From: Blastocystis sp. Blastoise
Lineage: Eukaryota > Sar > Bigyra > Opalinata > Blastocystidae
Assembly (NCBI GenBank): GCA_039096225.1
Contig: JBBPEB010000014.1
Span: forward strand, 2,306,501-2,370,500
DNA: 64,000 nucleotides
Direction of reading: 5' to 3'
Position numbers and translations under genes: made by a program. Positions 1-41,656 of the stretch are shown one piece after another. A model generated the notes under the pieces. The model made no database searches. It was given only the letters and a program-made list of their open reading frames with translations, and had not been told where the DNA came from. Numbering within the stretch: position 1 is the first letter of the stretch; each line of letters opens with the position of its first letter.

Positions 1-2545
<2,545 letters not shown>

Positions 2546-2768
2546 ATCTCTATATTTATATTTTTTTTTCTCTATATTATTATTTTAATTCTTTTTTATT
2601 AATTTCATTAATTATCCCTATCTCATTAACTTTATATTTTTCTCTATTTATTCTCTTTTCATTTTTCCCTCCTATATTTAGCATCGTTTTCTCTTATACA
2701 TATATTTTTTTTCATACTTATTTTCGTATTATTATATATCCCTTTATATTACTTTTCCTCTATATTAT

Positions 2769-2836
2769 CCTTAAGCTTAAATTGGTAAGTTTCAATCAAT
2801 TTATGATTGAAAACAGGTTCAATTCCTGTCTTAAGG
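2769..2836 (+). ncRNA. tRNA-like cloverleaf RNA, copy A
   Basis: 68 nt fold into a full cloverleaf. The acceptor stem is CCTTAAG with CTTAAGG (7 bp). The D-like stem is CTTA with TAAG around a 6-nt loop containing GG. The anticodon-like stem is an 8-bp TTTCAATC with GATTGAAA around the 7-nt loop AATTTAT. The T stem is ACAGG with CCTGT around TTCAATT. GGTTCAATTCC matches the pol III B box, and a T run follows at about 2852. It is not a standard tRNA: the 8-9 and 26 spacers and the variable loop are missing, and the anticodon loop lacks T33. Copy B at 60921-60988 has the same length, with base-pair-preserving changes in all four stems. Confidence 0.7.
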
Positions 2837-7643: not shown

Positions 7644-8720
7644 TCCTAACAATAAAAGGAATAAAAGAAAAATGAAAGCCTTTTTGAATTAAAATTATGA
7701 AACTTTATTCTTTTATAGCCAAAAATTTGATAATAATCGCAAACAATTATAAAAGAACATATCTTTCATAAATTCACGATTATGTTTGATTTAATGACTT
7801 GAATTCAAAAACTAATCATGATTTTTATTTAATTAACATTCATTCTTTTCATTTCCTTATTATTCAATGAATTTGAATTTATAGTAAGAATTACTTTATT
7901 TTATTACTTATAAATTGTTATGATTTACAAGAATAGCATTAAAATAAATCAAAATAAACACTTATTATCATTCTTCATTCCATTAGTTGTGGTAATAAGT
8001 CTATTCTATATTGATTACTAATCACGATACTATGAGTGTTATTGATTCATATAGATGACTTCTGAATTCCTTTCTTTTATTTACATTTTGGTTTTTCATC
8101 TTCTTTATAAAATCTGTTTGATCATCAATTTATATTCAGTATTACTCAAATAATTTTAATTCACATGAATCACTTATCTAGGTTATGATAATGATGCTTT
8201 TTGATAATTATTCCAATTGATTCCTATATTTGTGTTTTTATATATTTAATATATATAAATTATGTTTATAATGAATTTCTCTATTCATTAAATATGACTT
8301 TATTTCCTGCAATGTTAATGTCCTTCACATTATTCGAAAATTCATTATCTTCTCTTTTCTTTTTTTAAAAGTAATGAATCATGATATATGGTATACTGTT
8401 AGAATTATTATATGAATAAGTATATTATCTCTTTCAAAACAGTTACTATAATCTATTTTTTAGTGTACCATTCAAAAGTACATAATAAACAAAATAAAAC
8501 CATGAATTCATAACAAATAATAATAAGACATTATATTAAAAATAAAAAAATATTAAAAAAACTAACATATATAATTAATAATGGCTACTATTCCATTATT
8601 GTCAAATCAAATAATACATTTAGATATATATAATTAATTGAAATTTAAATTGATATTTTTTAAAAATAATAAAATAAATATATACTACAAATAGCAACAT
8701 AAAAAAACATATAAAAAAAT
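7644..8720. other. AT-rich intergenic region
   Basis: Gap between two minus-strand genes. No coding signal, RNA structure or repeat longer than short AT runs was seen. Confidence 0.6.
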
Positions 8721-13400: not shown

Positions 13401-15968
13401 TTACTCTTTGTTTTCATTTTCATCGATAGTTGAAATAGAAGAAATAGAATCATTTTTCTCTACACCTTCTTTATATGTTTTTATATCATTTTGTAAATGA
13501 GGAATAAATAGAGGAGGACTATAAGCTTTGTTGTCAAGTTCCTGTTGAATATCGAGATCCGAAGGAATAACAGTTCGACTAATACGATTTATAGGAGATA
13601 TACTATTATTTCTATTAGAACTTGTTAATAAAGTATTCTTATTTTTTTGTTTCTTTGATTTCTCTTTATGATTCATTCTTTTTGTTTTTTTATTTATTTT
13701 TTCATCATTATTTATAATATTTTCAGTATTATTCTTATTACTTTCAATAATAGTTTCATTATTAGTATGAGAATGAGACAAAGAAATAGGATAGATTAAT
13801 GGATTAGGAGAGGATAATGGGTTTTGAGATGAATATCCTGAAGAAGAAATAGAAGAAGTTCGATGTCCAGAATAATAGCCAAAAGAAGAATTTCGATGAG
13901 AAGGAGAGACAAGAGAAGGAGAACCATTTGAATTATATCTATTTGATGAATTATTCCATAAAGGAAGAGGAGATTGACTGAAATCTAATCGATAATTATT
14001 ATTTGTATATATAGGTATATGAGATAATGTATTATTAGAAGAAATAGGAATTTGATTTGATATATTGATTGATGAATCATTCAATAGTTTAGCTTGATCT
14101 ATAGTAGATAGTATAGGTATAGGTATATTTGAATTATTAAGAATAGGTGAATGACCATTAGTATAAGAATGAATACCTGATCGAGTAGGAGATATAGTTG
14201 AATTAGATATAGGATGAGGAGATGTAGAAGAATTATTATGATTATAATTTAATATGATTTGAGGAGGAGTAGTTAGATTATTATTATTATTTTCTTGATT
14301 TATAGATTGATTATTAATAGAAGATTGAGGAAGAATAATCATAGATTTCACACGATTTGAATTATTATTATTATTTTTATTCTTATTCATTTGATTCATT
14401 TTTGATGCATTTAGAGCATCTATATTAAGAGATCTTCTTGTTAATAATGATTTACGATCTATTATTATAGTATCTGGTAATTCATTATTTTCTTCACAAT
14501 TCTTATTTATAGTTGATGAATCGACTGGATCATGAGGAGATTTAGAATTATTATTATTATTATTATTATTATTTATAATCTTTGAATCTTCTTCTATTGG
14601 ACTTTTAGATCCTTTTTTAACTTTACGAATAATAATTTTCTTTACTTTCTTCTTATTCTTATTATCTTCATTTAAATTATTATTATTATCATCTTTTATA
14701 TCTTCAATAGTTTCAGAAACAGGAGAATTACTATTTTTCTTAACAATCTTCTTTACTATACGTTTCTTAATAATCTTCTTTACTTTACGTTTAGGTTTCT
14801 CTTCTGTTGATTCTATAGGTGTATTGGATTCATTATTATTCTCATTATTTTCTTTATGAATAATATCAACAATATTGTCATCATTATTAATAATAATATT
14901 ATTTTTCTTTGATTTATAAGAATCTAAACTACTATGTTTTGATGAAGAATTAGAATTAGAATTTGATTTTGAATTTGATATAGAAACACTTGAATTCATG
15001 GATTGATGTTTAGAATCTACTATAGGTTCATGAGATATATTTAATATAGACATAGAAGCTCTAGAAGGATGATTCTGTTTTGGTGAAGATAGTATATTCA
15101 TAGAAGATCTCATATTTCTTATTGTAGAAGGATCTATAGTTTTTGATAAAAATTCTCTTCTAGAATTTAAACTAAAAGTATTCTTTGAATTATTGTCTTG
15201 AATATCATCATTATTATAATTATTATTCTTTCTTTGATTCATATTCAATAGAGTTCCTCCACGTAAGAAATTAGGATTTCCTACAACAGAATCTGCTGTG
15301 ATTATCATCTTTTTATTATTATTATTAGAAAATGAATTATTATGACTATTATTACGACTATTATAAAGATGAGAACTATCTCCACTTCCATCAATATCTA
15401 ATCCCATAGATAAATCTTCAGTATCATTACTATATAAATGATATCGATCTCTATCTTGATCTCTAGAATTGAATTTATGATCAAAACTATTACTATTCTT
15501 ATGATGATATTGTGAATAGGATAAATATAAAGATGGTCTATGAATAGAATCTTGATCATAAGTACTACAAGTACTACTCGTACGATGGAAATTATTCATT
15601 GAATAAGATCGAGTTATATTTGCATTATAATATTCATTAAATGATATTGTATGAATACTATGACTAAATAATGAATGTTCTAAATTCATATTCATAGTTG
15701 CTTGTAATAAAGGTAATAAACGTTCTTTATCATTATTATCTGTTGATTTTAAAATAGGAGATGTAGATCCTATTGTTGATGAAGGAATACTATGAGAATC
15801 AACATTATTTATATCTATTCCTTCAGGTATATTCATATCTGTATTACTATTAATAGAAGAAGAACGTTCATTATGAATAGAAGAAGAATCACTTGAAGGA
15901 AATTGTAAGGATATATATCCAGGAGAACTAAATGAACGAGTTAAAGATTGAGGTTGTAATTGTAATTG
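13401..15968 (-). other. Last exon of the giant gene: Ser/Asn/Lys-rich cytoplasmic tail
   Basis: About 855 residues in one exon, low in hydrophobic residues. Two related basic blocks lie at about 14745-14800 (KRKVKKIIKKRIVKKIVKK) and 14590-14650 (KKKVKKIIIRKVKKGSK), each followed by Ser-Pro. Many S-P and R-x-S sites suggest phosphorylation (inference). Asn runs are encoded almost only by AAT. The acceptor could be at 15969 (TTACAG) or 21 nt upstream (TATAG); both keep the frame. Confidence 0.75.
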
Positions 15969-18019
15969 CTGTAAATAAGTATAATATAACTATAAAAAGA
16001 ATTTTTTAATGTTATTATAATAATATAATAATAATAATAAATATATATATACCTGTAAAGCTTTTATACGTTTAATTCTTCGTTTAATTTCTTGTTCATT
16101 TTTATTTACTATAATAGATTTTTCTTTCCATAATTCATCTTGTTTCATTTTCTGTTGAGTTTCAAAAGCATATTGATTTTCTGTTAATCGATATTTACCT
16201 CGATCTCTTAAATCAATACCACTATTGATCCATTCTTGTGTTTCACTATGCCATTGATCTTCAATTCGATCACTTTCTTTTGTTGTCTCTAATTTCACAA
16301 AGGTCTTATTCATAAAATCCCATCGAAATTTATATCGTAATAACATAAATAATAAATATCTATAGAAAGATAAATATTATTTTTATAAATAATTTAAAAT
16401 ATAATAAATAAAATAATAAAAATAATAAATAATAATAAAAAAAAACAACTTACAATAAAATAATAAAACAAGGAAGATAAACAAAGCAAATAATCATTGT
16501 AATTGTATTAATTTGAAAATTTTGATTTGTATATATATAAGGATACGATCCTTTTGATAATTTTGGTCTTATAATAATACCATAAACACCACTTTCTTTG
16601 ATATTACATAGAATCATACTTTTTTCAAATCGATATTGAATTTCATCTAAACATTCAAATTCATTTCGTTTCTCATTTAATTTAGCAATACAATGTTCAT
16701 CTTCTGTAATATCTAATGGATGACGATAATAAGTATTATTTTGAAGTACACGAGGTAATAACCATACTTTACGAGGGAACATTAAATCGATCTCTATTGC
16801 ATTGATTAACGATTCTACACGTTTATTATAAATATCTATAAAAGTTAAATTTAATATTAATCCATGTTGAATTACAGGTAAATGTAAAGATAATAAAGAA
16901 GAATCATATCGAGGAGGTTCATATATAGCTATAGGTTTTCCTGAAATAAAACGTAATTCTTGAAGACGTGTATAATTATTAGCTTTATATGTATATTGAT
17001 TTAATTGTGAAGATGATAATGTTGTTATAGATAAAAATATAGGTAAATTTGTAGAATGTAATTGAGCTATATAAAAATAATATATTTTTTAATTAATTAA
17101 ATAATTAATATATATATATATATACCATGAGGTGTATGTATATAACCATAAAAATCATTCGTTTGAGTATATAGAATAATTTGTTTTGATTCTTGACCTA
17201 ATAAAGTAATACGATAATCATAAGGAAGTATATCTCTTGGATTTAAATATAAACATTCTGATATAGAATAATGACAACTACCATCAAAACATCTATAAAA
17301 AAATATTATTATTATTATTATAAAATAAATAAAATAAAAATAAAAAACAACCATACCTATACATATTATTTGGACAATTATACAATCCTTTACACGATAA
17401 TGTAGATTCTGTTTCTGAATTGAAAGATATACATGTAGAATCAGGACATCTTAATTGATTCTTCATACATCCATAAGTAATAGGACATGTTAATCTACAA
17501 ATACCATCTGAACATAATTGATATGTAGATATAAAACAACTATATGTATTATTATTTGAATATAAAATAGGAATAAAAATAGATAATGTTGTAGAATCAT
17601 AATGAATATTAATTTGATTTGATTTTTCTTTAGAATAAATAGAATAATCATAATAATGATAAGGTGAATAAATAGATCTTCCTACTTGTTGTCCTGATGG
17701 TGATATAAATATAGAATTACAATCGATATTGATATCTACACAAATACCATTAGGACATCTTTTAGGAGATGTAGTAGGACAAGGAGGAATAGGAGGACAA
17801 AGAGAAATATCACGAAAAGACCCATCAGGACATAATGTAATCGAAGAAAAAGGAGAAGGAGAAGGAGAAGGAAGAGATGAAAATAATGTTATATTTAATG
17901 TTTCACAATAAAGAGGAGAAGATACACATAAATCATTATAACAATGATAAGGAAGATTCTCAGGACAATTTGATAGTAATGGACAATCACCTTCATTTAA
18001 TACACATGTACCTATAAAA

Positions 18020-18051
<32 letters not shown>

Positions 18052-21000
18052 CCATCAGGACATTCTACAGGTAAATGTGAAGGACAAAAAGGAAGTCTTT
18101 CTGGATCTTGCTAAATATAGATATTATTATTATATTAATAAAATAAAAATAAAAATAAAAATTAATAAAATAAAAAATAAATAAAAAAACAAATAAAAAA
18201 ACAACATACATTACAATTTATACACGGTTTACATAAACTATAATGAGCTACACAACTCATATCATCACATAGAAACGGAATATCTTTTGGACAAATAGGT
18301 CTTTTTGGACAACTTCTATATATAAAACTAATTTCTTGATCTGTTTCTTTTCCTTGTATTAATGTATAATTTTCTATAGAATTATAAGGATTATCAGATT
18401 GATCTTCATTTATAATATTTAAAGATAATAAAATAGGTGAATATCGCTGACCATGTAAAGGAATACAATCTCCAGAAGCACATGCTTGAGAATGATATAT
18501 AGAACATCTATTTAATAATAAACATTGTGAAGGATGAGAAACACATTGACCATTTGGACATATATAAGATTGATTAATAGGACAAGAATATGTATTAGAA
18601 TTTAGAATAGAAGAACATTCATTTCTTGTAGAAACACAAGTACCATTAGAACATAATATAGGATGAAGAGGAGAACAACCATTAATAAATGTACATTCAT
18701 TAGCATTCCTTACACATTCTCCTCGAATACATTTATAAGGTCTTTCATGAGGACAAGAATGATAGGTATATTCAGTTGTACAATTATAAGAATATTTCAC
18801 ACAACGACCTGTTGGACATTTATAGGGAGATGATAATGGACAACCTATATATATTATTATTATTATTATTATTATTTATTTATTTATTAATTAATATATA
18901 TATGTAATAATAATAAACTTACCATTATCACTAAGACAATCTTCTTCTTTTTCAACACATAATCCATTATATAATCCTGTTTTACACATATAATTATAAG
19001 GAGATGTACATATAGTTCGATCAGTACATAAAGAAGAAGAAGCACGACAACTACCATCAGAACAACGAATATAATTTGTATTATAATTACTTGTATTACA
19101 AGGCATAATCAAAGGACAATCTGTATACGATTTCACACATATACCTATAGCACATCGAATTGGTTTATCTTCACTACATAATGAAGGAAGACTAGAAAAA
19201 TAAGAATATAAATATTGACGATCTACAAAATAAACTAAAGGAGATTCAAAGAGTTCTGAAGAAAATAAGGATAGTTTATTATTAGTATTATTATTTTTGT
19301 TAAATAATTTATGTTCATATTCATTTAATAAAGGAGATGATTTCTGAAGATTATTTTCTGTAAAGAAAGATTTATCCATATATTTCATAAAAGAATCGAT
19401 TATTGTATTATATAGAGTATTTATTATAGATTTTATATTATTCATTATTTTATTAAGATAACTATTATTATTTATATCTGTATTCAATAATGAATTAACA
19501 AATAAAGAAGGAGAAGGAGATGTATCTTCAGGAATAAATGAATAAGAAGAATAAGGACAATAAAAAGTAGATATCATACATAAACCATTCTCACATTGTT
19601 TATATGGAGCAACACATAAAGCTAGATAATATTTATTTATTATTATAAATATAAATATTATTATTATTATAAATAAAATAATAAAATAAAATATAATAAA
19701 ATAAAATAAAATAAAATAAAAATAAACAAACATACGACTACATTCTTCATCTTCTTTAATACATTCACCATTATAACATGATTTAGGTTTAGAAGAAGAG
19801 CAACCATTCGAAAGAGGACAATCTTCTATAGATTGACGACATGTACCATCTAAACAACGTATATATCCATTAGTATTACAAGTCCAATCACACGAAGAAT
19901 GATAAATATCTATATTATTCTTTGAACTATCTTTTGTATAACATATTAATGTATTATGACACCATCCACTAAATTGATCATTATTACAATTATCATTCGA
20001 TATACATTCTTCTTTTGAAGATACACATAATCCTGAAATACATTTATAAGGTTTAAACATAGGACATAAAGGTTCAGAACATAAAGAAGAATCACGAACA
20101 CATGTACCATCAGAACATAAATATTTATCATAACTACAAAAACCAGTCACATAATGATCACTTTCCATTGAATATTTATCTAAAAAAAGATATTTATTAT
20201 ATTATAAAAAAATATATATTATTATAAAAAGATATATATATAAAATAAAATAAAATAATAAAATAAAATAAAACAACAATAAACACCTACTATAATAACC
20301 TTCATATCCATTAATACAATCACTTCGATCTTTAACATACTCTCCATGAATACTACAGAAACTAGTAAATTTAGTAACTTGTCTTGCTCCTGTAGTAATA
20401 CATTTTCCATTAAGACAATTCGAAGGTACATAAGGAGGTATAGGTGGACAATCATCTTCAGAAACATGACATGATTGATCCCAACATAATATAGGATTTG
20501 TAGTTGGACAATATAATAATGGACATTTCTTTGTTATAAATACACAACTACCATCATTACATAATTTATAATTAATAGGACAATGAATAGTATTAAGACA
20601 TTGATTCTGATGATAATGACATAATCCATCACTACATAAAATAGGTTTATTTCTTGGACATATACGATAAGAAGGACATTGTTCACTTTGAGATATACAA
20701 CTACCCTCTATACATCGTTTACTACCTTTAGGACAAAGAGGAGGAGGAATAGAATTCGATAAGATATTCGATTGAAAGGATGTATCTGTAGATAATGGAT
20801 CCCAATAATATTTATTTATAGAAGTTAAAGATCCTTCTATAGAAGCAATAGGATCTCCTGTAGGTATAAAATAGGGAGATATACTATATATATAATAACT
20901 ATCATCACTATAATGTATATTATATCTTCTACAAGGATAAAATTGATAATTACGTGAACATAAATGTTGATATCGATCTTTTATTTTATTTATACAATTA

Positions 21001-24000
21001 TTTATATCTTCTTTATTATTATATACATTACATACATCGATATACATTTCTAAATATTTACTAACACATTGTTCTATTGTATGTTTTATATTTAAATCTG
21101 ATTTATCATGATATTCTGTTATATCTAAATATTCTTCATTATATTCTTGTAAAGAATTATAGATATAAGGGAATATATTGGTAACACCATAAGTACTATC
21201 TTCAATCATATAACAACCTCCATCTTCACATCTCATTTCATTATCTCTACATACAGATATAGTAGGACATAAATAAGAATGTTCTACACATATTTTTTGA
21301 TAATCACACATATAGAATCCTAATGGACAATGATAATTAGATTCATCAGTACATAATGAATAAGAAGATACACAATAACCAGTATCACATAATATAGGAC
21401 TCGTAGTAGGACAAATAACAGGACTTGAACATAATAAACTATTTCGTACACATGTTTTACTAGAAGAACAATAATATGGATAAGCAGAAGGACAATGAGA
21501 TGTTAATAATATTGAAGGAGAAGGAATAGTTATATTTGTAGTTGTTTCTAAAGATTTATTTTATTATAGTTTTTATTATAGTTTTTATTATATAATATAT
21601 ATATATACTTCCTTGTTGATTTCTTTCAATAAAATGAATTTGTGAATAACAATCTTGACTATTTTCAACACAAGTACCATTATCACAAAGAATAGGTTTT
21701 TCAAAAGTACATAAGATACTAGGTCTACATTGTTGATAGAATAAAGCACATCCTCCATTAGGACAATTTATATAAGGAGATCGACAAAGAGGTGTTTGAG
21801 AACAATAAAAAGATGAAGGTTTACATGTATTATCAGGACATAATACAAGAGGAGAAGGACATGTAAATTTATTAAAGAAAATATATAAATATATAAATAA
21901 ATATATAAATATAAATATATAATAATATTATAAAGGATATGTAACATGTGTTGGACATTCAAGCATAGAAACAACACAAGTATTATCATTACATTTATAA
22001 AAGTTTTTTGGACAATTTGTATAGATATTAATGATTGTAGATTCATTTAAAGATTTTTCATAAATAATATTATTATAAGCATCTTTATGATAGAGAGGAT
22101 AAGGAAATAAAGTAGTTTCTTCATTATTATTATTATTAATAGTTTTAATAGAAGAAATAGTTTGAATATTATTATTAAGAATAGAAGAAGATGAATATAA
22201 ATTCATATTTTTTGATCTTGTATTCGGTGCACTTTCAGATAAATTTAAATATAAGAATTTATTATCATATTGATAATTATAAGTTTCACCAAAAATAAAT
22301 ATAGAATCCGAAATACATTGATTTGAAGGAGATAAATGATAATATCTTGGACATGTAATTGAAGAAGGACATAAAGTAGCATTCTTAACACAATATCCTT
22401 GAGGACATCGATAAGGATAGGTTAATGGACATGTTGTATATATACATTCAGATATACTATAATTATAATATTTATAATATTTATTATTATATATATACTT
22501 ATGTGTACACATTCCATCAGGACATAAAATAAGTGGTTTAGGACAAAAACGAAGAGAAGGACATTCAATTGGATCAATAACACAACTTTTCTATTTATAT
22601 ATTTATTATTAATATAATAAAAAAATTAAAATCATAAAATAAATACTTTATCCCAACATAAAATAGGAGCATAAGAAGGACATTGAATAGAGTTTTTATA
22701 TTGATTACATTCTTCTACAGATACTGCACAAGTAACTAGATCTCCACAAGTAATTGTAGAAGGTGGACAATGAACTTGTTGAGGACACATTTGTTTATTT
22801 ATAGCTATTGCTCCATCAACACATATTACTTTATTTGTATCATGTATAGGAAAAGAAGGACATCTAAAAATATATTATATTATATTAATTATAAAAAATA
22901 AAATCAATATATATACTTCATATAATTATCAACACAAGCTCCATTTTCACATATATATCCATGACAAGTACAATTATGAATATCTTGTTGACAACCTATA
23001 TGAATATCTTCAGATTCACGATTCATACAAGCTTCCATTCCTAGAGGACAAGTAAGACTATTATGACAATCATTCCAATCAGAAACACAATGAATATCTT
23101 GTCCATTATCAAAGAATTCTATAGGATTCTTTATGTAATTACCATTCATATTATTATAACATATATAAGGACTAAGAGAAGAATGCTGTTTACATAAAGA
23201 AGGAAGGAAAACAAGATTTGGTTGAGTACCTAATAATATCTTTGTATAGATTTCTGTATTTGTAAGATCATCCCAAGTAATATCTGTTAAATAAAAATCT
23301 ATAGATCCATAACCATATAAAGGAGATAATATAGTTAAACTATGTATATAAGGAGTCTGAGATTTGAAAGGAATAGTCAATCGAAGCTATATAGAAATAT
23401 TTATAAATAATAATTATTAAATATATATATAAAATCATACAGATCTTTGTTTTCCACTTGAATCAAGAGTAATAATAGCAAATAGAGTTTTATTGGATGT
23501 ATTAATATCTAATAAATTCCCTAATGCATCACGAATCTTAATAATCATAGTCACATCTGTATATAGAGAAGTACTCTCTGAAATAAATGATATATATGTA
23601 TTTGTATATTCAGGTTCTAAAGGAGAAAGAGAAGTAAGTTTATTAAGAAATATATAGATATATTTTTATAATTATATTATATATAATATAAAGGATATAG
23701 ATAATGATATTGAAGATATTGATGATTATTAATAATAGGATAATATATATAATCACCAGAATAGATTAATTTATATTCACAAGTATAGGAATCCTTTATA
23801 AATATACAAGGGAATAGTTCAGTATGAAGAATAGGATTTCCATCACCCTCTATATCCAGTGATACATCCATTTCAATAGAAATAGAATAGGCATCGAATT
23901 CTATTGGACGTTCATATATATCATAAAGATATACATATATAAAACAAGTTGTATTCACACGTTCACATTCATCATTCTTAAGGACTATATTTATATTTAT

Positions 24001-25484
24001 ATTCATTTATTTATATAATAAGAATACTTGTAGATTGATATCTGATTTGTGCTGGATAGAGTTGAATCTTTAATAATGGAAAAGGAGAAGTTGAATTATA
24101 ATATAATTGAAGTGTATATTCAGTTAGTATATTTATTAAAGAAAATAATTTTTATTTTTTGAATAAATATTTACTTATATATAAATAGGATATAATTTCC
24201 AGGATGAGTAGAAGTTAAATCATTATAAATTATCAAATATTGACCTATATATAAATATTATTTTATATTATATTATTATATATATACCAAGTTCTTTATC
24301 ATATAATTGAACATTCAAATGAGGTGGAATAAACATTGTATTCGACTATATAGAATACTAATAATACTATATATATTATATAATAAATATACAGAAGATG
24401 TAATAGCCATAGAGAATAGATTTGTGTCAAAATAGGTATATACAGGATTCCCATATATATCTACAGTAGATAATAAGAATGATCCTTTTGTCTATTAATA
24501 TATAATATAATATATAATGTAATATATAAATATATACATTTTCTCTTAATCCATGTATACTACATAATCCATCAGGTAACTTATCTTCATTCTCTAAGGG
24601 AGAACAGGAATATATATAGGAAGTAGCTTCTGATGGTTTTATAATAGCTTGTATTGGAGAATTCTATTTATATATATATAGAATATAATAATATAATAAA
24701 TATACTAATAAAGCTACTCCTGATAGTTTTACATATATATCATAGTTTCCAATTGTATATAAATATAACGAAAATACATATACATTTCCATAAATTAATA
24801 TTGCATAACTATATAATAATTATAATAATAATAAATATATATACCTATCTGTTTCTATACGAGTTTCATTCTTATATATTTCTATATATAATTCTTTTGA
24901 TATATCTTCTTCTATTGTATTATTAAAGGAGTGATTATTAAGAAAATATTTATTTATATAATATATATAAATAATAATAATATAAAAGATATATCAAAGA
25001 GATGAACATGAATGAAAATTTGAGTACCAGCTATATAAGCTATATATATAAATAATAATGATAATAAATATATATATATACTTTTATTGATTCCTTCATC
25101 ATCTAATAATTCTATATATATAATAATAATAAAAATACATATAATAAATACCATTTTTTCCATAATCTTCATAATTAGGAACAGGAATAGGATTATTATT
25201 AGAAGGGAAATGAATAAATGATTGTTGAGGGTCCATAATTGATGGAGAAATAATCAATTGAAATTGTTGTTCATAATGAACTTGCTCAAGAGAAAATGTT
25301 ATAGTATATGTATCAGCATCAATATAATACATTCTATATAATAATAATAATAATATAATATATATAATATATACTTTGTATAAATAGTATTATGATCAAA
25401 AATAAAGATAGCTGGTTTATTCCCTGTGCAATAAGGTAAATCACATACATTGAGATTATTACCCTTAGAATCAATCACTTTATA

Positions 25485-25516
<32 letters not shown>

Positions 25517-28354
25517 TATATACATGTTGATTTTAAGAATGGTTGAATATAAGTAGGATTAATATCATTACCATAAATATCTCGTGGATGAAATGTACAA
25601 TTAAATTCTATTCCTGTAGTTAATTCATCAGGACAAAGTAAATAAGAAGGAGATCCAAGAAGATCTATATAATTATATTATTATTATATATTATATATTA
25701 TATATATACTCATATTAGGATAAGCATAAGTAGTAGTAGTAAGTATTTCTATATAGGGTTGATCTTCAAAGGATGTAGAAATAGTAATAGTATATAGATC
25801 TCGATAAGAAGAAAGATGAAGAGGAGAATCTATTAGAAACTATATAAATATTAATTATATATATATTATTATATATACATGAATATGATTATTGTTGAGA
25901 GTATAAGAATAGAGAAGAGGAGGAGAAGAAGTTAAATTGAATTGTTGATTTATAGGAATAGGACTATATAATAATAATATTAATAAAAAAAATAAATATA
26001 CATTTCATTATTATGAATATCTTTAACAATAACATCTAATTCTCTTCTTATTTCAGGTACAAATCCCATACTGAATGTTCCTGAATAGGTTGATGATAAA
26101 GAATACTTTAAACATGTGAATGTAGTAATTGTCACTGATGTATCCAATATAGGCATATTATTATATAATAATATAAACGTATAATTACGAGCAGTAGGAA
26201 GATGAGGTATAGTTGTATATAGATTAAAGAAAATAATAGTATTTAATTAGTATTATTAATATATATATATAAAAGGATATTTATAAGTACCAAGTGATAT
26301 AGTTTCAACTATATACATAATTCCATCATAATAATCTTCATCTATATTTATCCTATATATATATTTATATTTATATAATAATAGAATACCATTTAAGATT
26401 AGATTGTTGACCCGTAATAATATGTTGATTTTCATCAAATATTTGAAATGAAAAGAATGGATCAGTTTCTAAATTGACATTTAATATCGATGATACATGA
26501 AATTTAAGAGGAGATGTTAATCTATAAATATATTGAAAATAATTAAAAAAATATATATACATGAATAAAGAATAAGGAAGAGAAGATAGAGTAACAGGAA
26601 TATCTTTAGAGAATAGATTATCTTGTTTATTTTGAAAGAATAGACGTATATATAAATAAGGATATTCTGATTCAGTAAGACCAATAATAGAAGACATTTC
26701 AACAATATAATGAATATGAATACTATAAATAAATATAAATAATAAATAATAAATAATATTAACATACGTATTATTGAGTATATGTTTATCTACAGTAAAA
26801 GGAGTATCTTCTAAAGTATCAGCTCGTCGAATATCTATATCAATATATTCTCCTTCATGATTATATATAGAAAAAGAAGGATCTTCTTTTGAATATCCAC
26901 CTTCTTCAATATAATATGTAGCATTCAATGAATTAAAATATTCATCCTATTATAAATATATAACAATAATAATAATAATAAATAAATACTTTTAAATTCA
27001 TATAGATATCTCCACAAATAGAAATATTAGTAGAATCACAATAAGAAACAAATTCAATTCCAGTCCCATGAATATCAGTATGAGCAATATAAAGAGTACC
27101 AGGAACAACAGCTATTATATATATTATATTATAAATATAAATATATATACTTAGATAAGAATCATAGATATTTCCAGAAACTAATGTAATCAATGAAATC
27201 TTATGGAATCCTGATACTTTAGCAGGTATAGAACATGTACTAAGAAGACTTATTGAATCTGGATTCATAACATCATAATAAGTATTTCGATCTATATAAA
27301 ATTATATTCAAATTATATATATTTATATATACCTTCTACATAACTATAATCACATATTTTATATACACTTTGTAAATTAATTACTGAATTATTATATCTA
27401 TAAATAATATATATATAAATAAAGAATAATAAAATAATTACATATCAAAGAATTTGATGTTTATAGGAATAATATCACCAGCAGTATAAAGAGAATCATG
27501 AGTTACTTTTATTGTAGATGTACTATATATATATAAGAGAATAATAATAATTAATATACATTTCAGTAGAAGGTATAGTAGTGATATTCAATTCTAAAGA
27601 GGACCAAATATTATCTTCAGATAAACAATCTATTTTCACAGTTATATTTCTAACTTTTGAAGGTAAATGAATAAATGTATAAAGAGGACAAATAGAAGTA
27701 TATTGATATTCTTGTGTATATATATCAAGAGAAGGAGATGTTGAAAATGAATAAAAAGATTTCTGAGTATACTATATAATAATAATATATTATAATATAA
27801 ATATATAAATATACTTCTCCATCACCTTTAATATACACTTTATATTTATCTCTTCGATTATCTAAACAATATCCATCATCATATATATCTCTTGTATATA
27901 TATACATATACGTTAATGTACCTGCAAAACTAATAGGACTGTAAAAAGTAGAATTAAGAAATATATATAATAGTATTAAGAGAATATAATATAAAATAAA
28001 ATAAAATATAAAAAGGATATATAGATTTCAGTTTTCGAGCAATCATTAGGACTAATTCTACTTTGAATAGTACAATATATATAAGAATTAATTGTATCAA
28101 TATCTTCTTCTTCTTCTTGATTTAGAAGACGTACATATAAATGACCATTAGAAATCTCACGAAAGAAGCGAATGGATAATGTATATTGTGAAGTAGAATC
28201 CATAGTGATTCTATAACTAAAGAATTGATCGGATTCACCTGGAAATAAAGGAATATCAAATCCTTCTGAAGATGTTACATATAATTTTATTATAAAATTA
28301 TTCTGATTCACTAAATTATAATAACGATCTCTTACTATTAATGTAAACTATATA

Positions 28355-28391
<37 letters not shown>

Positions 28392-31300
28392 CAACACTTC
28401 TATATAAAGGAATAATTGAATAGATAGTAGAGATAGAAGAGTAGAGATAAGAAGGAACATCACTATATACTGATAATTGGAATGGAGTATTAATCACACA
28501 TAAACCATTCACACTATAGAAAATATTATTATAGATTTATATATATTTACATCCATCTAAAATAAACAGATTCTGAAGTATAAGAAACAAATTGATATAT
28601 TAATTTTTCATGTAATGGATCTATATATATATAATAATCATAATAATAAATATATAAAATACCTTCTTTTGAAGTAAAGAAATAAGATTGATCTGTATTT
28701 AATAGAATTGTTCCTGTAAATAATGTTGTAGGAACTGTATTATTATATTCATCACGAAAATATATTTCAAAATTATCTATATATATATGTTATTATTATA
28801 TAAATATAAAATAAATATAAATATATACGAATAACACCAACACTAGTAGTTTTATTTGGTGGTATAAAAATAGTATTTGAAGGAAGAAGAGAACCATGAG
28901 TTACTGTCCATGCAGATAAAAATGGAGAATAATGAATAGGAATACCATCTACTGTTATATAAATATCATATATAGCTACATAGAAAGCTTTTAAATATAA
29001 ATAAAGAGAAGAAGAAGAAAGATAGGAGAAGGTATATGTAGGAAGAGATGGAACTATATATATATATATAGAATAATAAATAAATAAAATATAAATATAC
29101 CCTTTCGATCACTAATAAAAGTGACTTTAATTCGTTGTTCGAGATCGATATCTATAGGTATTTGTCCACATCGACTATTAAGGAATAATTGAAGTGGATA
29201 TATAGATCCTGCAGTACTCGTGAAGAAGAGAGGATATTCAGAAGGAGTAATAGTAGTAGAAGTCAAAGGAATCGTTGATACTGTAGGAGATATCAATTGG
29301 ATACCCTATTCAATATAATTATATTATTATTATTAATATATACATGTTCTGGTGAAATAATTTCTAAATAATATCCTGATGATAAATGAGAGACAGAATC
29401 CTATATATATAATAATAATAATGATTATATATAGAATAATACAAGATTGATATTGAGAGTATGTTTATTAGAGAGATAGAGATGAAGTTGATTATATCTA
29501 GAGATCAACTGTAGAGTTAATTGTCCATTATTATAGAAGGAATAGGATACTGAAGTAATTATAGAAGGAGATTTTATTGTAGGAGGAGTATCACCAGGTA
29601 AATATACTTGAAGAACTATATATTTATTATTTAATATTATTATATTTATATACTATTTTCATTAAAGAAGAATATATAAGAATTAGATTGAGAGAAACAT
29701 CGAGATTGAAGTATATTATTATAGGGAATATCAGGGTTTATTACAGGAGTAGAAGAAGAATATTGTATATAAGGATGAAGAAGAATACAAAAAGGAGATA
29801 TGGATTCTATATATATATAATATAATATATAGTATATATATACCTAAATAGATATTTGATTTAAATTGAAGTATTTCATACATATAAATATGATATCCAA
29901 ATATTGATGTTTTATTAAGAGATACAGTCTAAATATATATATTAATAATAAATATATATATATACTTGTTGTTGAATATGAATATTTTTGAAATCTCTTG
30001 TACAATAATAAGGATTTTCTCCTTCACTGTTTAAAGTACTACTATAACTATTTCCAGAGAGATTAATACTACTATTCATATTCGGTATAGTTGTAGTATC
30101 TTCTTTATCAATAATCATAAAAACTACTTTAGAGAGAAGAGGAGCATCACAGAGAAATGTCAAATTCGTTTGAGTTATAAAACGAGATATAGAATCTATA
30201 GAATAATATTATTTTATTATTATTATTATGTATACTTGATTGAGTTCCACATGTTCTAGAAGCAAAGAATATAGATATAGAATAGGTGATTCCAGGAATA
30301 AGACCTAATTTATCTGCATAATTCGTTATATTAATATGAGAACCAACTGGAGTGTTATAACTATATATATAATAATATATAATATAATATATAATATAAA
30401 TACCCTCCATAATCTAAGAATAAATGTTTATTAATAAAAACCCATAATCCATTATTGGTTTCAAAATCTATAAATTGATCTGTTCTATTCTCATATCTAT
30501 ATATATAATAATAATATTTTATAAATATAAAACAATAATAATATACAAGAAAAATAAATTTGTTTTCATAGTAAACCAGCATTTCTTACCAATATATTCT
30601 TCTATTGGACTTAATGCATATCCTCCTTTTACATCTGTTAAAGGAAAATAAGTAGGACTAGAAGATATAAAATATTATAGATATATATATACTAATTAAG
30701 TGTAAGAAGGTTTTTGGTACCCATAATACCAATAAGAGGAAAAGAGAAAGAATATGAATTATTACTTTCTGTAAACCATGTATTGAAGGTAGAATATGTA
30801 GAATTCATAGATGCACTATAAAAAAGAAGAATAAAAATAGTATTATAAAAATATATATATACACAGGAAGATCATAATCATTGAGTTCTGATTCAACGAA
30901 TCCAGTTTCTTTAGAACTTCCCCATTTCTGAAAGTCAGTATTTCCTTGGGGATCTAAGCAACATAATCGAGAAATCACTTCATTATTATGGAAATCATCA
31001 GTAATATCCTCTACGAAACAACATCCATCTCCTGCAGCAGTATAATCATAATAGGTACTCATTGTATATATTATAGCTATAAAAAATTATATTCATTAAT
31101 TATATATAAATATACGAGAAGTAGCAACAAAAATTCGAATATTATTATCAGCATAATCATTCACTTTATCACATACTGTTTCTACTCTATCTTCTTTTGA
31201 ATATAAATTTGAATATATATATCTATATATAATATAATAATACAAAAATAAATAAATATATACTTTGGATAATTTGAAGGTTGTTTTGTAATAAAATTAT

Positions 31301-32160
31301 CTGTATAATGAATAATACAATCACGAATACCAAATCCTTTCTCATCAACATATAATGCATATACTCTATATATATTAATAATAATTAATAATATATATAT
31401 ATACTTATAAGTGACTGATTTTGTTTGTATTTCAATATATTCACCTCCAGGAAGTGATTGACAAGATTCATAAGGCCATTGATTTGTTATGAATTCATTA
31501 AATGTAGAATACTTTTGAAAAGTCATTATGAAATATTCATCATCAGACCAACCATTTATATTCAATATTAACAACTTTAACGAGGTTCCTGGCAATAACG
31601 AAATAGGAAGGGAACCTATAAATATATTTCAATTTATATTTATTTTAATAGATAAATGTGATGATAAGAATCATAAATTTCATATTTTTAGAAATAAATA
31701 AATTATAAAAATCATACCAATTACGTCGTAATCTCTGAATGAATTATTCTCTATGTTCTTAAAGCCTGTAGGATTCGATATATGTTCTATATAACTTCGT
31801 TTATCTGTTATAAAGTCATTATTGGAATTCGAATAAAACATTTCCCACATTTGACCTTGAAAATGATAACAATAAGTCTAAATAAATTTATAAATGATTC
31901 TAGAATTCTATTTATGTATCATTACATACAAGATAAACTTCATTACGATCTTTTCCTATCCAAACATACTCAGAATCAAAATAATAATCACCTCCTTGTT
32001 TTATCATACAATCTTGTACAGGCAATTCTCTTGATTTACCTATTCAATTATGTGGAATATTATGGAATTAAGAGAATAGAAAAAACAAACCTAATTTCTT
32101 TCCAGAATTAACTGCTAAACATGTAGTATAGATGAATAAGAGTAGATATAATATTCTCAT
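13401..32160 (-). CDS. Giant modular type I membrane protein, about 63 introns
   Basis: One continuous gene. It starts MRILYLLLFIYTTCLAVNSG, a clear signal peptide (32160), and ends at a stop at 13401. I traced about 57 GT-AG introns (33-114 nt) and six AT-AC introns. The summed exons are a multiple of three, about 5,140 residues. Order: unique N-terminal region (30.6-32.1 kb); a long run of beta-sandwich units resembling filamin/Ig repeats (about 23.4-30.6 kb); a Cys-rich array with at least 25 motifs of the CxxGxC type, such as CSDGTC and CIEGSC, spaced 40-50 residues (17.1-23.4 kb); a membrane span across the intron at 16360-16453; then a cytoplasmic region with a charged stretch (16.05-16.35 kb) and a Ser/Asn-rich tail containing two Lys-rich KKVKKII-type blocks. 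Likely a surface adhesion or receptor protein (inference). Family not recognised. Confidence 0.82.
16360..16453 (-). other. Intron splitting the transmembrane segment of the giant protein
   Basis: GTAAGT donor at 16453 and CTATAG acceptor at 16360, phase 2. The two exons join INTITMIICFVYLPCFIILL to YLLFMLLRYKFRWDF, giving one hydrophobic stretch of about 28 residues followed by basic residues. That fits a single-pass protein with its C terminus in the cytoplasm. Confidence 0.75.
17357..23387 (-). other. Cys-rich repeat array of the giant protein
   Basis: Exons here encode tandem units of the form C-x3-x6-C-x2-G-x-C-V-x5-C-P. Examples are CSDGTCVRDSSLC, CISGLCVSSKEEC, CIEGSCISQSEQC and CNDNTCVVSMLEC. 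They recall LDL-receptor class A or EGF-like modules in spacing but lack the LDLa acidic calcium motif, so I do not assign them. The repeats continue without a break across the U12-type intron at 21863-21940. Confidence 0.7.
21863..21940 (-). other. U12-type AT-AC intron (78 nt)
   Basis: Donor ATATCCTTT at 21940, branch site TTTTCTTTAAT, acceptor TTTAC at 21863. Joining in phase 2 gives HVTCPSPLVLCPDNTC, which continues the Cys repeat. No GT-AG alternative here keeps the frame. Confidence 0.88.
23634..23698 (-). other. U12-type AT-AC intron (65 nt)
   Basis: Donor ATATCCTTT at 23698, branch site TTTCTTAAT, acceptor CTTAC at 23634. Phase 2 join gives QYHYLSLSPLEPEYTNTY with an open frame onward. 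Confidence 0.87.
24127..24193 (-). other. U12-type AT-AC intron with variant donor (67 nt)
   Basis: Donor ATATCCTATT at 24193, branch site TTTTCTTTAAT, acceptor ATATAC at 24127. Phase 1 join gives STHPGNLTEYTLQLYYN. The donor departs from the others at position 8, but no downstream AG exists for a GT donor nearby. Confidence 0.68.
24931..24992 (-). other. U12-type AT-AC intron (62 nt)
   Basis: Donor ATATCTTTT at 24992 (one change from the consensus), branch site TTTTCTTAAT, acceptor AATCAC at 24931. Phase 0 join gives HVHLFDSFNNTIEED. Confidence 0.8.
26215..26280 (-). other. U12-type AT-AC intron (66 nt)
   Basis: Donor ATATCCTTTT at 26280, branch site TTTTCTTTAAT, acceptor ATATAC at 26215. 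Phase 2 join gives LGTYKTIPHLPTARNYTF. Confidence 0.87.
27941..28020 (-). other. U12-type AT-AC intron (80 nt)
   Basis: Donor ATATCCTTTT at 28020, branch site TTTCTTAAT about 13 nt before the acceptor TTTTTAC at 27941. Phase 0 join gives CSKTEIYSPISFAGTLTY and opens the next exon. Reading AG just downstream as the acceptor would break the frame. Confidence 0.88.
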
Positions 32161-35117
32161 TTAATTAAATAAGAATTATAGGATGAATTATCAGAAAGAA
32201 ACAAAAGTGTTTTGAAAACAAGAAGATTCTCTTAATTATTTGTTAGAATCTGAGTGAAAAATGGTTTGTGTTGTTTAAAATGAGTTTGGCTGAATTTTCT
32301 TTGATTTCTTTGTTGTTGTAGAGGTTGTGTGTTATTTATAGTGTTAGAAGATTTTATATTTGAATGATTATGTTGATTGTTGCTTATTATTTTAAAATAA
32401 TTAATTTAATTTGGAAATAATTCATTTAATATTTTAGTTAGATGAGTATTGTGATGAGTATATAAAAGTCTATGTGATGAGTTAAATAGTATTATAGTAA
32501 TTAAATAAGAGAAAAGTCTTTTAATTCAATTTTACTTTTTAATTGTTTGTTTTATTGAATTATTTTTTGATATATTGTATTATTTAAAAAATTTTACATA
32601 TTATTTGAAATCAATTAATTTATTTTAATGATAATTATTGTTAAGAAAACTGAATGATTATCATAAATCTGAATCATATGAATAATATAGCATCTATACA
32701 TTTTACAGTTCACTTTAAAGCCATTCAATACTTTATAATTTTTCTTATTGAATAAAAAAATGAAGAAAACAATAGAATCGTTTTTTCCCATATTTGTACT
32801 ACTCTTCTCCATGATTTGCAACACAATATTTTTTGGGTATTTCTACCAATTTTTCTTCTTTTTTCCTTATCGTTTCTTTCCATCAATTCACATAATGATA
32901 TGAGCAATTAGCAGATATCATAAAACTGATAACTAAAGTCGGGAAAGAAACACAATTATTAGAATGTCTATATAGAATATCAATGAATAGAAACTCTCGT
33001 ATTTTACCACTATTTCTCTTGTATTATACATAAATTGACTGATTGTAAAAAAGTTGCTAATTCAACTGTTTTGAAAAAAGTATAAAAATCGTTATAGCTA
33101 TAGTTTCGGTATTTCCCAAGAAATCAGTAAAAGTGATCTTACTAGTCAAGAGAGAATTCTATAGTGTCTACAGTCAAGTCTAAAAACAATGAAAACCTAT
33201 TGGAGTCAATAAACAAAGAATTCTTATAAGAGTCTCTCGCTATTAACCTAGTTTTTAAATAAGATATTCTTTATAAGCTATGTTATCAAAACGAGTCATA
33301 AAAAATAGAAAAATTTGCTTTATTTTCTATATAAAAAGATTGCTATCTTATGTCAATACGACTTTTCCCATAAATCAGCAAACAGTATTCAGAAACTCTT
33401 CATTCATTTGTATTCGTTGCTTTTTGCAAAATACTTTGGCTATCAATTTTTATTTTTCATTTTATTCTATGAATATGGAATATAATTATATAATTTATTA
33501 TTTTCTAATGAATATTTTATGTGTATTCTTCACTAGTAGATTTTAAAAAACATAATAAAGACAATTATAGTGATTCCATTTCAATAATGTTGTCAATTTT
33601 GAGTATAAATTGTTATATAATGTTTATCAATATTAGAGATATACATAAATGAATTTTATAGGATTAAAAGAGGAAATGTTAAAAAAATAGTTTATAAAAT
33701 TGTATTAAAAGCGTTATATAAATATTTTGTGAAACTCTTCTTCTTAAAATTTATTTTTTTAATTTTTGAATGATAAAACGTATTAAATCATTTATAAATG
33801 TATTATTCTATTCTATCTACTTGCTAACTTGTTTAATTGATTAAAATGAATACAAAAAAATCACCGATTCTCAAAGATGAGTATATTTTTCTTATTAATA
33901 AGTTAAAAATAAATGTTATTCACAATGTATTGAATATGTATAATAAGAAATAATAAAGAATAACGATGAAAAAACATCAAAATTGATTATTTATAAAAAT
34001 ATATTTGAAAAGTCTTTACATATCAATATCAGTGTCATAAAGAAATATAAACTCATAGATTTAAATTTATAAATGATTTATTATATGAAGAGGATCTTTA
34101 TGTATTTAATAATGTGAACTATTTCAAAATACTTTATACAATAAAGAGTAACAATGAAATGTTTTTAGAGAATTTAGTAGATGAATCAACTTCATACTCT
34201 TCAACTGTTTTCAATCTATATATATAAATAGATTCTTCATAAATATTAATTTATATATAATATAATAACTACATAAATACCATGAATATCAGGAAATAAA
34301 GATGAATTGCTTGTTTCAATTGGTATACATAAGGTATATTCATGTTATAATATACAGAAATGTGATAGAATAGTTTTTTATAACTTTATAGAATATAATA
34401 TTGCTATTATTTCAAAAACAAGAAGAGAATCACTGTTAATTATTTCTATCTTGTTGAAATTCCAGTAAAAAATAAATAATTGACACATCATGACATCATA
34501 AATCATTCTAGACTTCTTAAATAGCTGCTCATGAAGATCAATATAGGATTTTGAAAATAATTTGTTGAAGAATTGTGAATATTTGACTTTTATTTGAAAT
34601 ATACTTTGCTAACATGTGATTAAAGCAGCCAATAATACGTTCATTTATGTTTATTTAGTAATTTTGATTCTTATATTTCTTTTTTTGATTATAATAATGA
34701 ATTCTTTGAGTATATCCATGTTCTTTATGTATTTTAATAAACATATTCAACTATATCGAATTGAATAAGTTATTTTAACGATATAAAATGATTAAAAAAG
34801 ATTTAAAAGAAATAATATTTTTCACTTTTTATTTTCCGCTTTAAAAAAAAATATAATCGTGATTCTTTTTTGATACTTGTTCATTCACTTTGAAATGCGA
34901 TATAATTACCCTTAATATCAATGAGTAACTAAGAGTAATTCCATATATATCTTTTCTAAAAATTTGCAAGTTTTAATTTTTCTTGCTTTCACTGATTCAT
35001 TATTTTTATTCTAGGATACAACTATTTTCAAAGTATTTATTGAATATACTATATAGAAATTTGTTTACAAAGCAAGACACTCTATGATTATGTTATTTTT
35101 ATAGTTGAATTCAAGTG
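32161..35117. other. AT-rich intergenic region between divergent genes
   Basis: About 3 kb between the 5' end of the giant gene and the 5' end of the right BTB-LRR-like gene, so promoters for both should lie here. Short open frames on both strands show no domain or splice series. No specific promoter element could be named. Confidence 0.55.
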
Positions 35118-38805: not shown

Positions 38806-40118
38806 TTTTTTTCATTAATTACGTTTTTTATTTATATTTATTATATATATATATATTAATTATTATGAACTTTTTTAAACATTATATTTAAATGGTATAT
38901 TTTTATATTATTGATGAAATACTATTAATATGGTCTTGCTTATATTATATAATACTTATATATACTCACAATTCCAAAGAGATCTTTTTATAAGTGTAAA
39001 TTATCAAATCAATTATTTTTCTATTCATTATCCATTGTTTTATGTAAAAGTATAAATTAAATATTTTATTAATATTATCATAAACACTTAATAATGAAAT
39101 ATAAACACATAGATAGGCGTGAAACTTTAAAAATATATATATAATATCATAATTGTTTTTTTATTTTATATATTTAGTTGAATGTATAAGTTTCTAAACA
39201 TCATATAGTAGGCTTTTAAATATAGATAATAAATGTGAACAAAATGGTTATTATTAGTATGTATTTAGAGTCAAAATTATGGTTTTATATATATTTTTTA
39301 ATTCTTGATTGTATTGAAACATTAGAAATAATATATACAAAAGTAATTTGTAATAATCAAATTATTCTATTGCTTTTAAGACAGCTGTCTTGACAATAAC
39401 TGAATGATACTTTCACATAAACTATACTTGACTTTATATAAACCAAAATACAAAATTAAGATTTCAAAAATACACATTTGATCACCAATCTCAGTGAAAA
39501 TTGTCACACAGCAATTCCATCAACTGATTTAAGAAGTAACTGGAAATAATTGGAATGATTATAAAAGGAAGTAAGGCAATCATAATATAGATAGGTGATT
39601 CACACGAATAATAATTGTTTAAAGAATAATAAATATCAATTGAAGCTCAAATAGATCATATGAAGAAGACTTGACACAAAATGCTAATAAAAAAAGATAT
39701 TTAAAAAGGATTCATGAAGATTATTAATATTCAGAATACTTAAATTAATCATAAATATAGAACAGACTTACTACTATAGCTAACGAAAAAAAGAATGACA
39801 ATGAGTTGTTTATTGTAATCTGTTTTAATGCTATTTTTGTAAATCACACAATTTATAAATATTATGATTTAATAATCTTATTAAAAATATAAATTAAATG
39901 AATAATAAAGATATTTAATGAATGAATTAAAAAGTTGATTAAAATCATGATTTATTTTAAAATGAAAGCTATAAAATGAAAATAATTATATAATGTTAAA
40001 ATAAAAGTGTTTAAAAATATTTACGATTATTATTAAATTTTGAGTTATAAAAGAAAATAGTTTCATAATTTAATTAAAAGAAGCTTTCATATTTATTTTA
40101 TTTCTTTTATTGTTTAGA
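38806..40118. other. AT-rich intergenic region
   Basis: Between two plus-strand genes of the right duplicated pair. No open frame or element is recognised, and it shows no obvious similarity to the matching gap at 7644-8720. Confidence 0.6.
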
Positions 40119-41656
40119 ATGGTGAAAGAGAATGTAGGATTTGATGCTGATAAGATTGGTGATATTCAGAAGGATGTAATTCATTTTGAAAGACTGATTG
40201 GTGATTTGATTGGTATTTTAAGTAAGTCAATAAGTTTTTGTGTTCATTCAGGTGAGTCAGTGAATGAATTAGTGAATCGATTAACAAGAAATTGTGATGG
40301 AATGAATGATAAGAATGGTGTTGATCCACATATAATTATCCAAGAATCTTCATATGTTCATGAAAGTGATTTAAATATGAATAAAAATGATAATGGAATT
40401 GATTTTATTCGATTTACGAATGCAGGTCCAGTTTATTCTCTTCCTAAAAGAATAACAAATAGTTTAGTAGGTAGTTTTATTTATGAAGCTTCTCAAGAAG
40501 ATCAAAGAGCTAATGATGGTACTATATTTATTGATTATCATGGTGATGAAACAGTTGCTCCTTTATTAATTGATTCTTTAATGAATAAGAAAGTGAATAT
40601 TGATAAATTAAGTTTTGATGATCAAATTGATTTATTAAGAATGTTTGATTACTGTAGTTTACCAATTCCTAAAGAATTTGTAAAATATTCATATAGATTT
40701 AGAAAGAATCATATTATGAAACACTATGAAGAAGGTGATGATGTTATTCTTTATATAAATGATAAGAAAGATGATATACTAAGAGATTATTTAAAGAAGA
40801 ATGGATTATGGAATAATATAGTAAATGAATATAGTGATGGATATGTAGATTATGATGAAAAGAATAATGAAATGTATATGAATATGAATTATACATATAT
40901 TGATCATATTGATGAATATATTCAATATAATTATATTTATATATCTGAAGAAGAAACAAAAAATATAAATAGAGAATTATTAGAGAATGAAATGTATAGT
41001 TTATTTGGTGATACAGGAAAAGAAAAGGTAAAAGAAGGAATGATGATTCCTCAATATTTTGTTGGCACAAAAATAATAATGAATTATTCAGTGGAAATAC
41101 ATTTAGTGAATTGGCTTGGTAAAGAAAAGAAATGGAAATTATTATTTAGAGCAAGTGAACATGATTACTTAGCAAGTGAATTTCATAGATATTGTGATAA
41201 TAAAAGAGAAACAGTAACTATAATCAAACATACAGGTCATAATAATAACATTAATATATTTGGAGGATATACAGATCAAAATTGGGATAGTTCAAGTTGT
41301 ATATTTATTTTATTTAATCATTCAATATGATTTATATAGGTTGGAAACCTTATTCTAAAGAATTTCTATTTATATTTAGCAATGAACATAATATTCCTCC
41401 TACTAAATATGAATATATAAATAATGATAAAAAATATGGTATATACTGTTATTCTTCTAATGGTCCATCATTTGGAAATGGCCATGATATCTATATATCT
41501 GATCAATGTCATAGTAATACCGATTCTTATTGTTCTGCATCTTCTTATTCTGAAGTGAATACTCCTCAAAAATCATCATTATTTGTAAATACTAATAGTG
41601 ATAATTTTACGAATAAATTTACAGTAGAAGATTATGAAGTCTGGGGAAGAGCATAA
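40119..41656 (+). CDS. BTB/T1-like plus TLDc domain protein (right copy)
   Basis: Exons 40119-41295 and 41340-41656 join in phase 1 to give 497 residues. The organisation is the same as the left copy: N-terminal MVKENVGFDADKIGDIQKDV, BTB/T1-like FTNAGPVYSLPKRI and FIDYHGDETVAPLLIDSLM, then TLDc with WKLLFRASEHDYLASEFHRY, NIFGGYTDQNW, KEFLFIFSNEHNIPPTKY and VEDYEVWGRA. By eye about three quarters of residues match the left copy, and the intron lies at the identical codon, while intron and flanking DNA differ. The start at ATG 40119 is chosen because the same MVKE start is shared by both copies. Confidence 0.88.

Follow-up and report, generated by a model that had tools for sequence, protein, structure and literature searches.

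Does a single giant gene of the gut-dwelling stramenopile protist Blastocystis sp. Blastoise (taxid 3128533) carry six introns that are excised by the minor spliceosome, and how might it have come by them? The question is raised by a stretch of 64,000 nucleotides (contig JBBPEB010000014.1, positions 2,306,501 to 2,370,500), here called the window, for which an earlier reading made from the letters alone (the sequence-only reading) had claimed six U12-type AT-AC introns in one gene. We examined the window together with the whole genome (33.3 Mb in 34 contigs) and are highly confident that the six are authentic introns of the U12-type AT-AC class and that the minor spliceosome of Blastoise removes them. 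Their U12-type identity is supported by the motifs, by small nuclear RNA (snRNA) genes, by conservation among paralogues and by one exact natural junction.

The gene was modelled by dynamic programming with codon log-odds, GT-AG introns and optional U12 introns. The model contains 64 introns, 58 GT-AG and 6 AT-AC, and all six AT-AC introns were found on the minus strand between 21863 and 28020, where the earlier reading had placed them (Table 1). The phases it had listed (0, 2, 2, 2, 0, 1) were recovered as a set, but their order was not: in gene order the model gives 0, 2, 0, 1, 2, 2. The model score was 2183.8 with U12 introns permitted and 2044.9 without. When the donors were broken in silico, the score dropped, in gene order, by 13.9, 17.8, 4.5, 13.7, 1.8 and 50.1 nats, and the frame alone fixes introns 1, 2, 4 and 6 well.

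Table 1. Coordinates in the window of the giant gene and of features within it. Occupancy refers to the copies of the gene found in the genome, one of which is L005.
Feature	Position	Strand	Description
Giant gene	13413..32232	-	predicted 5,065 codons; dynamic-programming model; start codon uncertain
AT-AC intron 1	27941..28020	-	80 nt, phase 0, ATATCCTTTTT..TTTCTTAATTCTACTTTTTAC; occupied in 14/14 assayable copies
AT-AC intron 2	26215..26280	-	66 nt, phase 2, ATATCCTTTTA..TTCTTTAATCTATATAC; occupied in 14/15; exactly absent in L005
AT-AC intron 3	24931..24992	-	62 nt, phase 0, ATATCTTTTAT..TTTCTTAATAATCAC; occupied in 13/13 assayable copies
AT-AC intron 4	24127..24193	-	67 nt, phase 1, ATATCCTATTT..TTCTTTAATAAATATAC; occupied in 7/7 assayable copies
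AT-AC intron 5	23634..23698	-	65 nt, phase 2, ATATCCTTTAT..TTTCTTAATAAACTTAC; occupied in 7/7 assayable copies
AT-AC intron 6	21863..21940	-	78 nt, phase 2, ATATCCTTTAT..TTCTTTAATAAATTTAC; occupied in 7/7 assayable copies
GT-AG intron adjoining AT-AC intron 2	26353..26389	-	exactly lost together with intron 2 in L005
Probe exon downstream of intron 2	26002..26213	-	15 genome places including the window, 97-100% identity

The 5' splice site of U12-type AT-AC introns is ATATCCTT(T), with extended conservation, and the U12 branch-site consensus is TTCCTTAAY, located near the 3' end. In the window, all six donors start with ATATCC or ATATCT (ATATCCTT in four introns, ATATCTTT and ATATCCTA in one each), and the branch site is always TTTCTTAAT or TTCTTTAAT, which form one 9-mer family and lie 6-12 nt before the intron end. 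All six introns end in AC and restore the frame. Motif pairs consisting of donor, branch site and AC end have eight starts on the sense strand of the gene, six of which are the introns, while one of the other two is presumably an alternative donor of intron 5. The antisense strand of the gene has none, and the remaining window has one on the plus strand and none on the minus strand. Among 1000 dinucleotide shuffles the mean was 0.086 motif pairs and the maximum 2, so that six or more were reached in 0/1000; 1000 shuffles within 200-nt blocks gave a mean of 0.073, also with a maximum of 2. The donor hexamer RTATCY alone is not enriched (257 in the window versus a shuffle mean of 357), and the enrichment is that of the motif pair. 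The observation made by the sequence-only reading is confirmed.

The gene has close relatives elsewhere in the genome. A 70-residue exon probe located 15 places, the window counted, and a presence table was compiled for 44 introns in 16 copies (15 others and the window), which sit on C8, C13, C14, C16, C17, C20, C23, C26, C30 and C31. Of the 63 AT-AC sites that could be assayed, counting the six of the window itself, 62 hold their intron. Within the stretches retrieved, the region of introns 4-6 had no match in nine copies; seven copies keep introns 4-6. For intron 5 another in-frame ATATCT donor lies 21 nt upstream, at 23719, and the model picked it in four of the seven copies with this intron. 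Among distinct paralogous introns, the branch-site columns were invariant (54/54), as was the terminal AC (12/12), whereas the interiors have drifted: 191 of 288 alignment columns were invariant and 97 varied, gaps being scored as varying, and length varies too. The donor 8-mer has a single spelling across paralogues in five introns and two spellings in intron 1; a count of donor columns (47/61 invariant) is unreliable, as it is distorted by gap columns. The flanks of the U12 sites are mostly 90-100% identical between copies. This pattern of variation suggests that selection acts to preserve donor, branch site and end and leaves the interiors free to drift. The 16-copy family, which offers 63 assayable U12 sites next to 365 U2 sites, makes loss, drift and constraint of U12 introns directly readable.

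Two further observations concern the family. Twelve of the 16 copies are no more than 125 kb away from a contig end, including all seven with introns 4-6. In the copy L014 (C26:33000-42900), AT-AC intron 1 is interrupted, within 1760-3800, by about 2 kb of inserted DNA, the opposite strand of which encodes a tyrosine-recombinase-like protein (PF00589, E 3.2e-5, 24.2 bits, below the cut-off of 27.1).

One copy, L005, lacks both AT-AC intron 2 and the preceding GT-AG intron, and its exons are joined at the predicted bases, with 96% identity over 50 nt at the site of U12 intron 2 and 100% at the U2 neighbour. As judged from the sequence, this join is a DNA record of the predicted splice junction of intron 2. 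In the presence table, 16 of 365 GT-AG sites and 1 of 63 AT-AC sites are exactly empty. A further exact GT-AG join, in L007 at window position 27332, stands outside the table because the neighbouring exon is too short to place. Exact GT-AG losses were seen in L004, L005, L006, L007, L010, L012, L014, L016, L018 and L019, at window positions 27332 to 25374. Seven pairs of losses are adjacent, compared with a mean of 0.96 when all introns were shuffled (0/10000 reached 7) and of 2.2 when shuffling was confined to the affected stretch (3/10000 reached 7). Such adjacent runs are expected from recombination with complementary DNA (cDNA).

Instead of being losses through cDNA, the exact absences could reflect the original condition of the gene or have arisen when the assembly was polished with RNA reads, which would affect this line of evidence and not the introns themselves. 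Polishing of that kind is possible, but most sites retain their intron (16/365 U2 sites empty), unlike the outcome of wholesale RNA polishing. Furthermore, L004, L010, L011 and L012 have the same intron-1 and intron-3 sequences as L005 and yet retain intron 2, so that intron 2 was most likely lost in L005 and its absence looks derived. We therefore regard this alternative as unlikely. Under the reading that we prefer, copies of the gene would occasionally lose introns exactly and in neighbouring runs, at least once with an AT-AC intron, and the likeliest cause would be recombination with cDNA of a spliced transcript. A gene copied with its introns inside provides a natural record of U12 intron retention and loss.

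Is the machinery needed to remove such introns encoded in the genome? The covariance search for snRNAs that the sequence-only reading had proposed found genes for U11, U12 and U6atac, and U4atac as a weak match. U11 (62.9 bits) and U6atac (63.8 bits) score above the Rfam gathering score. The 5' end of U11 pairs with the six donors at -3.4 to -6.6 kcal/mol versus -0.7 to -2.1 kcal/mol for four GT-AG donor sequences, and U12 pairs with the six branch sites at -4.5 to -6.9 kcal/mol. For U4atac, the default Rfam search of the genome was empty, and the candidate came from a relaxed search. In stem II its 5' end would pair with U6atac over 13 bases in a row plus 3, at -27.1 kcal/mol; stem I, of 8 pairs, would reach -10.6 kcal/mol. 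We find this candidate convincing as a predicted partner of the local, non-consensus U6atac. A pattern search by complementarity to U6atac returned one match, which was unconvincing by eye, and the control also returned one. In the reaction as known from the minor spliceosome, U11 would base-pair to the ATATCCTTTAT donor while U12 does the same at the branch site, TTTCTTAAT or TTCTTTAAT, partners that are evident in the sequences; U4atac.U6atac/U5 would then displace U11, and the exons would be joined at the AC 6-12 nt past the branch motif.

Several points weigh against this identification. The frame constrains introns 3 and 5 weakly, they bring a small gain in score, and the recovery of U12 introns by the model is not independent of the motif, because such introns were permitted only there. 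A natural spliced record exists for one of the six junctions, which are known here from DNA alone. The U12 gene (46.8 bits, E 6e-7) and the U4atac candidate (29.7 bits, E 0.045) both remain under the gathering score of 53. Two of 1000 shuffled U4atac candidates match the total duplex energy of the candidate with U6atac, so that the case for U4atac depends on where stems I and II lie and how long they are. PF05253, the one U12-protein family searched, gave three CHHC matches, none of them securely U11-48K: by eye, one lies in a TRM13-like gene; the assignment of the other two is ambiguous, and for one of them GTSF1 was the sole match among solved structures. Finally, the sole U6atac gene has AGCCGA where the Rfam consensus has the donor-pairing AAAGGA, a difference of three changes, and its duplex with the donors amounts to -0.1 to -1.6 kcal/mol versus -4.4 to -7.9 kcal/mol for the human element.

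Aligned with this gene, the Rfam consensus of U6atac has UGAAAGGAGAGAAGG opposite UGAGCCGAGAGAAGG. The poor complementarity of U6atac to the donor is a feature of the machinery; the motifs that define the introns themselves are present. No second U6atac with a canonical box emerged from a genome search with the pattern GAGAAGGTTAGCA and at most one mismatch, which gave 17 matches, the one exact match being the known gene. The 16 one-mismatch matches are at chance level, because the reversed control gave 22, and none of the five inspected by eye was U6atac-like. An exact 15-mer search for U6atac in other Blastocystis gave 117 matches in genome contigs and 48 in viral contigs, and none of the nine flagged by their context was U6atac-like by eye. 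The AGCCGA box may be genus-wide, an assembly error or RNA-edited. We put forward only tentatively, from the gene sequences, the possibility that the minor spliceosome of this lineage runs on a single U6atac that has lost most of its donor pairing, while U11, U12 and U4atac still find their partners and the donors remain ATATCCTTT. If this were true, donor identity would rest on U11 and proteins, U6atac would keep only the pairs beside the catalytic AGAGA, and the six-intron gene family would be the largest set of substrates of this spliceosome seen here. Pairing between U6atac and the donor is said to be required in vivo, to judge from the title of a 1998 paper by Incorvaia and Padgett. The box, if confirmed in RNA, would test whether that requirement is universal.

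How did one gene acquire six introns of this type? At the rate of Blastocystis ST1 (346 of 35,412 introns), which may not hold here, 0.63 would be expected among 64, and the binomial probability of six or more is 4e-5; the earlier view that six in one gene is unusual is thus confirmed. That view had been coupled to the idea that a U12 intron was duplicated along with repeat units. Multiplication of one founder intron within the gene would be compatible with the U12-type identity of all six, and the protein does contain repeats, while the six introns have similar signals. Yet the introns fall into three different phases, and of 15 flank-versus-flank alignments only that of introns 3 and 6 beats all 200 of its own shuffles, and there the two introns are offset by 46 residues. 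We consider such an origin improbable; it was the gene itself that was duplicated. According to the history that we favour, the six introns would occupy unrelated positions in one giant protein and would predate the copying of the gene, which spread it to 15 or more further loci, mostly close to contig ends, and raised the number of these introns from six to at least 62.

The public annotation contains a model of one paralogue, P0121 (WA158_002991), residues 4-1212 of which align with residues 1341-2592 of our model of L006 (C13) at 94.7%, from AT-AC intron 4 onward. By eye, the first residues of P0121 derive from the tail of intron 4, about 25 residues are skipped around intron 5, and intron 6 is translated. 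All three features would be accounted for by a gene model that makes no provision for AT-AC introns, and the case shows how such models fail in a gene of this kind. The same treatment of introns 4 to 6 is what one would cite for the view that the AT-AC stretches stay in the message and are read as coding sequence or that the major spliceosome uses nearby GT-AG sites, the U12 look being due to AT-rich sequence, but this view is very improbable given that P0121, past the translated intron 6, goes out of frame for a few residues and then skips before it returns to the Cys-repeat sequence, that no shuffle reached six motif pairs, that the motifs are invariant inside drifting introns and that intron 2 was exactly lost in L005.

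The C-terminal end of the giant-gene model matches P0121 by eye. The predicted protein shows, also by eye, repeated Ig-like and Cys-rich segments, the latter of the CPDGTC type, one hydrophobic stretch and a charged low-complexity tail, and it is probably a giant membrane-anchored protein. A Pfam scan of P0121 and one 176-residue N-terminal piece yielded no family at E 0.001. A protein search for relatives of similar length that share common short words found a single cluster, that of P0121, which has 21 members and bears the name of Blastoise.

To what extent do such introns occur outside the family, as they might in a lineage that makes heavy use of the minor spliceosome, the other possibility raised by the sequence-only reading? 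A strict pattern gave 71 matches in the whole genome versus 16 for the reversed control. By our own count 32 of the 71 lie in this gene family, which leaves 39 outside it, again versus 16 for the control. A broader pattern gave 77 matches versus 39 for its control, with 20 of the 77 in the family, and U12 introns of the GT-AG type were seen only as four GTATCCTT matches among these 77. Outside the family, modelling under the first rules covered five places and put a U12 intron at the match in two of them. With relaxed acceptor rules the model did so in 21 of 24 places, a result that is indicative only, because this step was without a chance control; the 24 places were hand-picked from the matches of the two patterns for their intron-like look and are not a random sample. 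The gain reached at least 5 nats in 14 of the 24, 9 ending in AC.

Three of the loci may be described individually. L020 (C4:501000-509000) has near 4041 a convincing lone AT-AC intron with a gain of 32.8 nats, in a gene that is amino-acid transporter-like by eye. In L021 (C4:1311000-1320000), near 4258, there is a U12-like intron with an ATATCC donor for which the frame fits an AT-AA end; the gene is by eye glycerol-3-phosphate dehydrogenase-like. Identical U12-like motif pairs are found at C17:250284-250318 and C21:687918-687952, one of which was modelled with a gain of 2.6 nats.

Minor introns of Physarum polycephalum have reportedly expanded, with significant genome-wide gain, in work that citing papers ascribe to Larue and colleagues in 2021. 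The present case resembles Physarum in breaking the rule of rare, single U12 introns. It differs in that the gain in Physarum is genome-wide, whereas here 32 of 71 strict matches fall into one duplicated family.

Closer at hand, 346 U12-type introns in 319 genes and cognate snRNAs are reported for Blastocystis ST1 in the genome paper (Gentekaki et al., 2017; PMC5608401). Our case shares with it the genus, the AT-AC ends and the cognate snRNAs, but ST1 has about one U12 intron per affected gene, compared here with six in a single gene and 62 across its family. Because U12 introns of ST1 have already been reported, we regard this as a new and dense example of a known phenomenon, multiplied through duplication of the gene. 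A later survey across eukaryotes counts 253 minor introns in Blastocystis, 77% of them AT-AC, and describes fast turnover in the genus and host genes that are longer and denser in introns (Larue and Roy, 2023; PMC10639083). The Blastoise gene agrees with the survey in its predominantly AT-AC minor introns and in being long and intron-dense, within a genus of fast turnover. The survey also gives a median of 39 bp for minor introns of ST1, compared with 62-80 nt here, and the loss of 11 of 12 aligned minor introns between ST1 and B. hominis, whereas the close paralogues studied here keep 62 of 63 (PMC10639083). Clustering of U12 introns in genes, with several per gene, is known from a 2020 publication (PMC7367187); against the cases given there, ours has six in one gene, and the family appeared as one Blastoise-named cluster in the length-limited protein search. 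Our literature searches retrieved no published account of the density, the gene family or the U6atac box.

The remaining observations concern the neighbourhood of the gene. An open frame of 2,088 residues on the minus strand (42252-48518), which encodes He_PIG, F5/8 type C and HRM domains, lies beside an intron-packed giant gene. Members of a large family of TLDc-domain proteins are encoded at 40074-41330 on the plus strand and at 6441-7688 on the minus strand. The protein encoded at 40074-41330 has 152 relatives; the best of those listed is 98% identical, and all 120 listed are from Blastoise.

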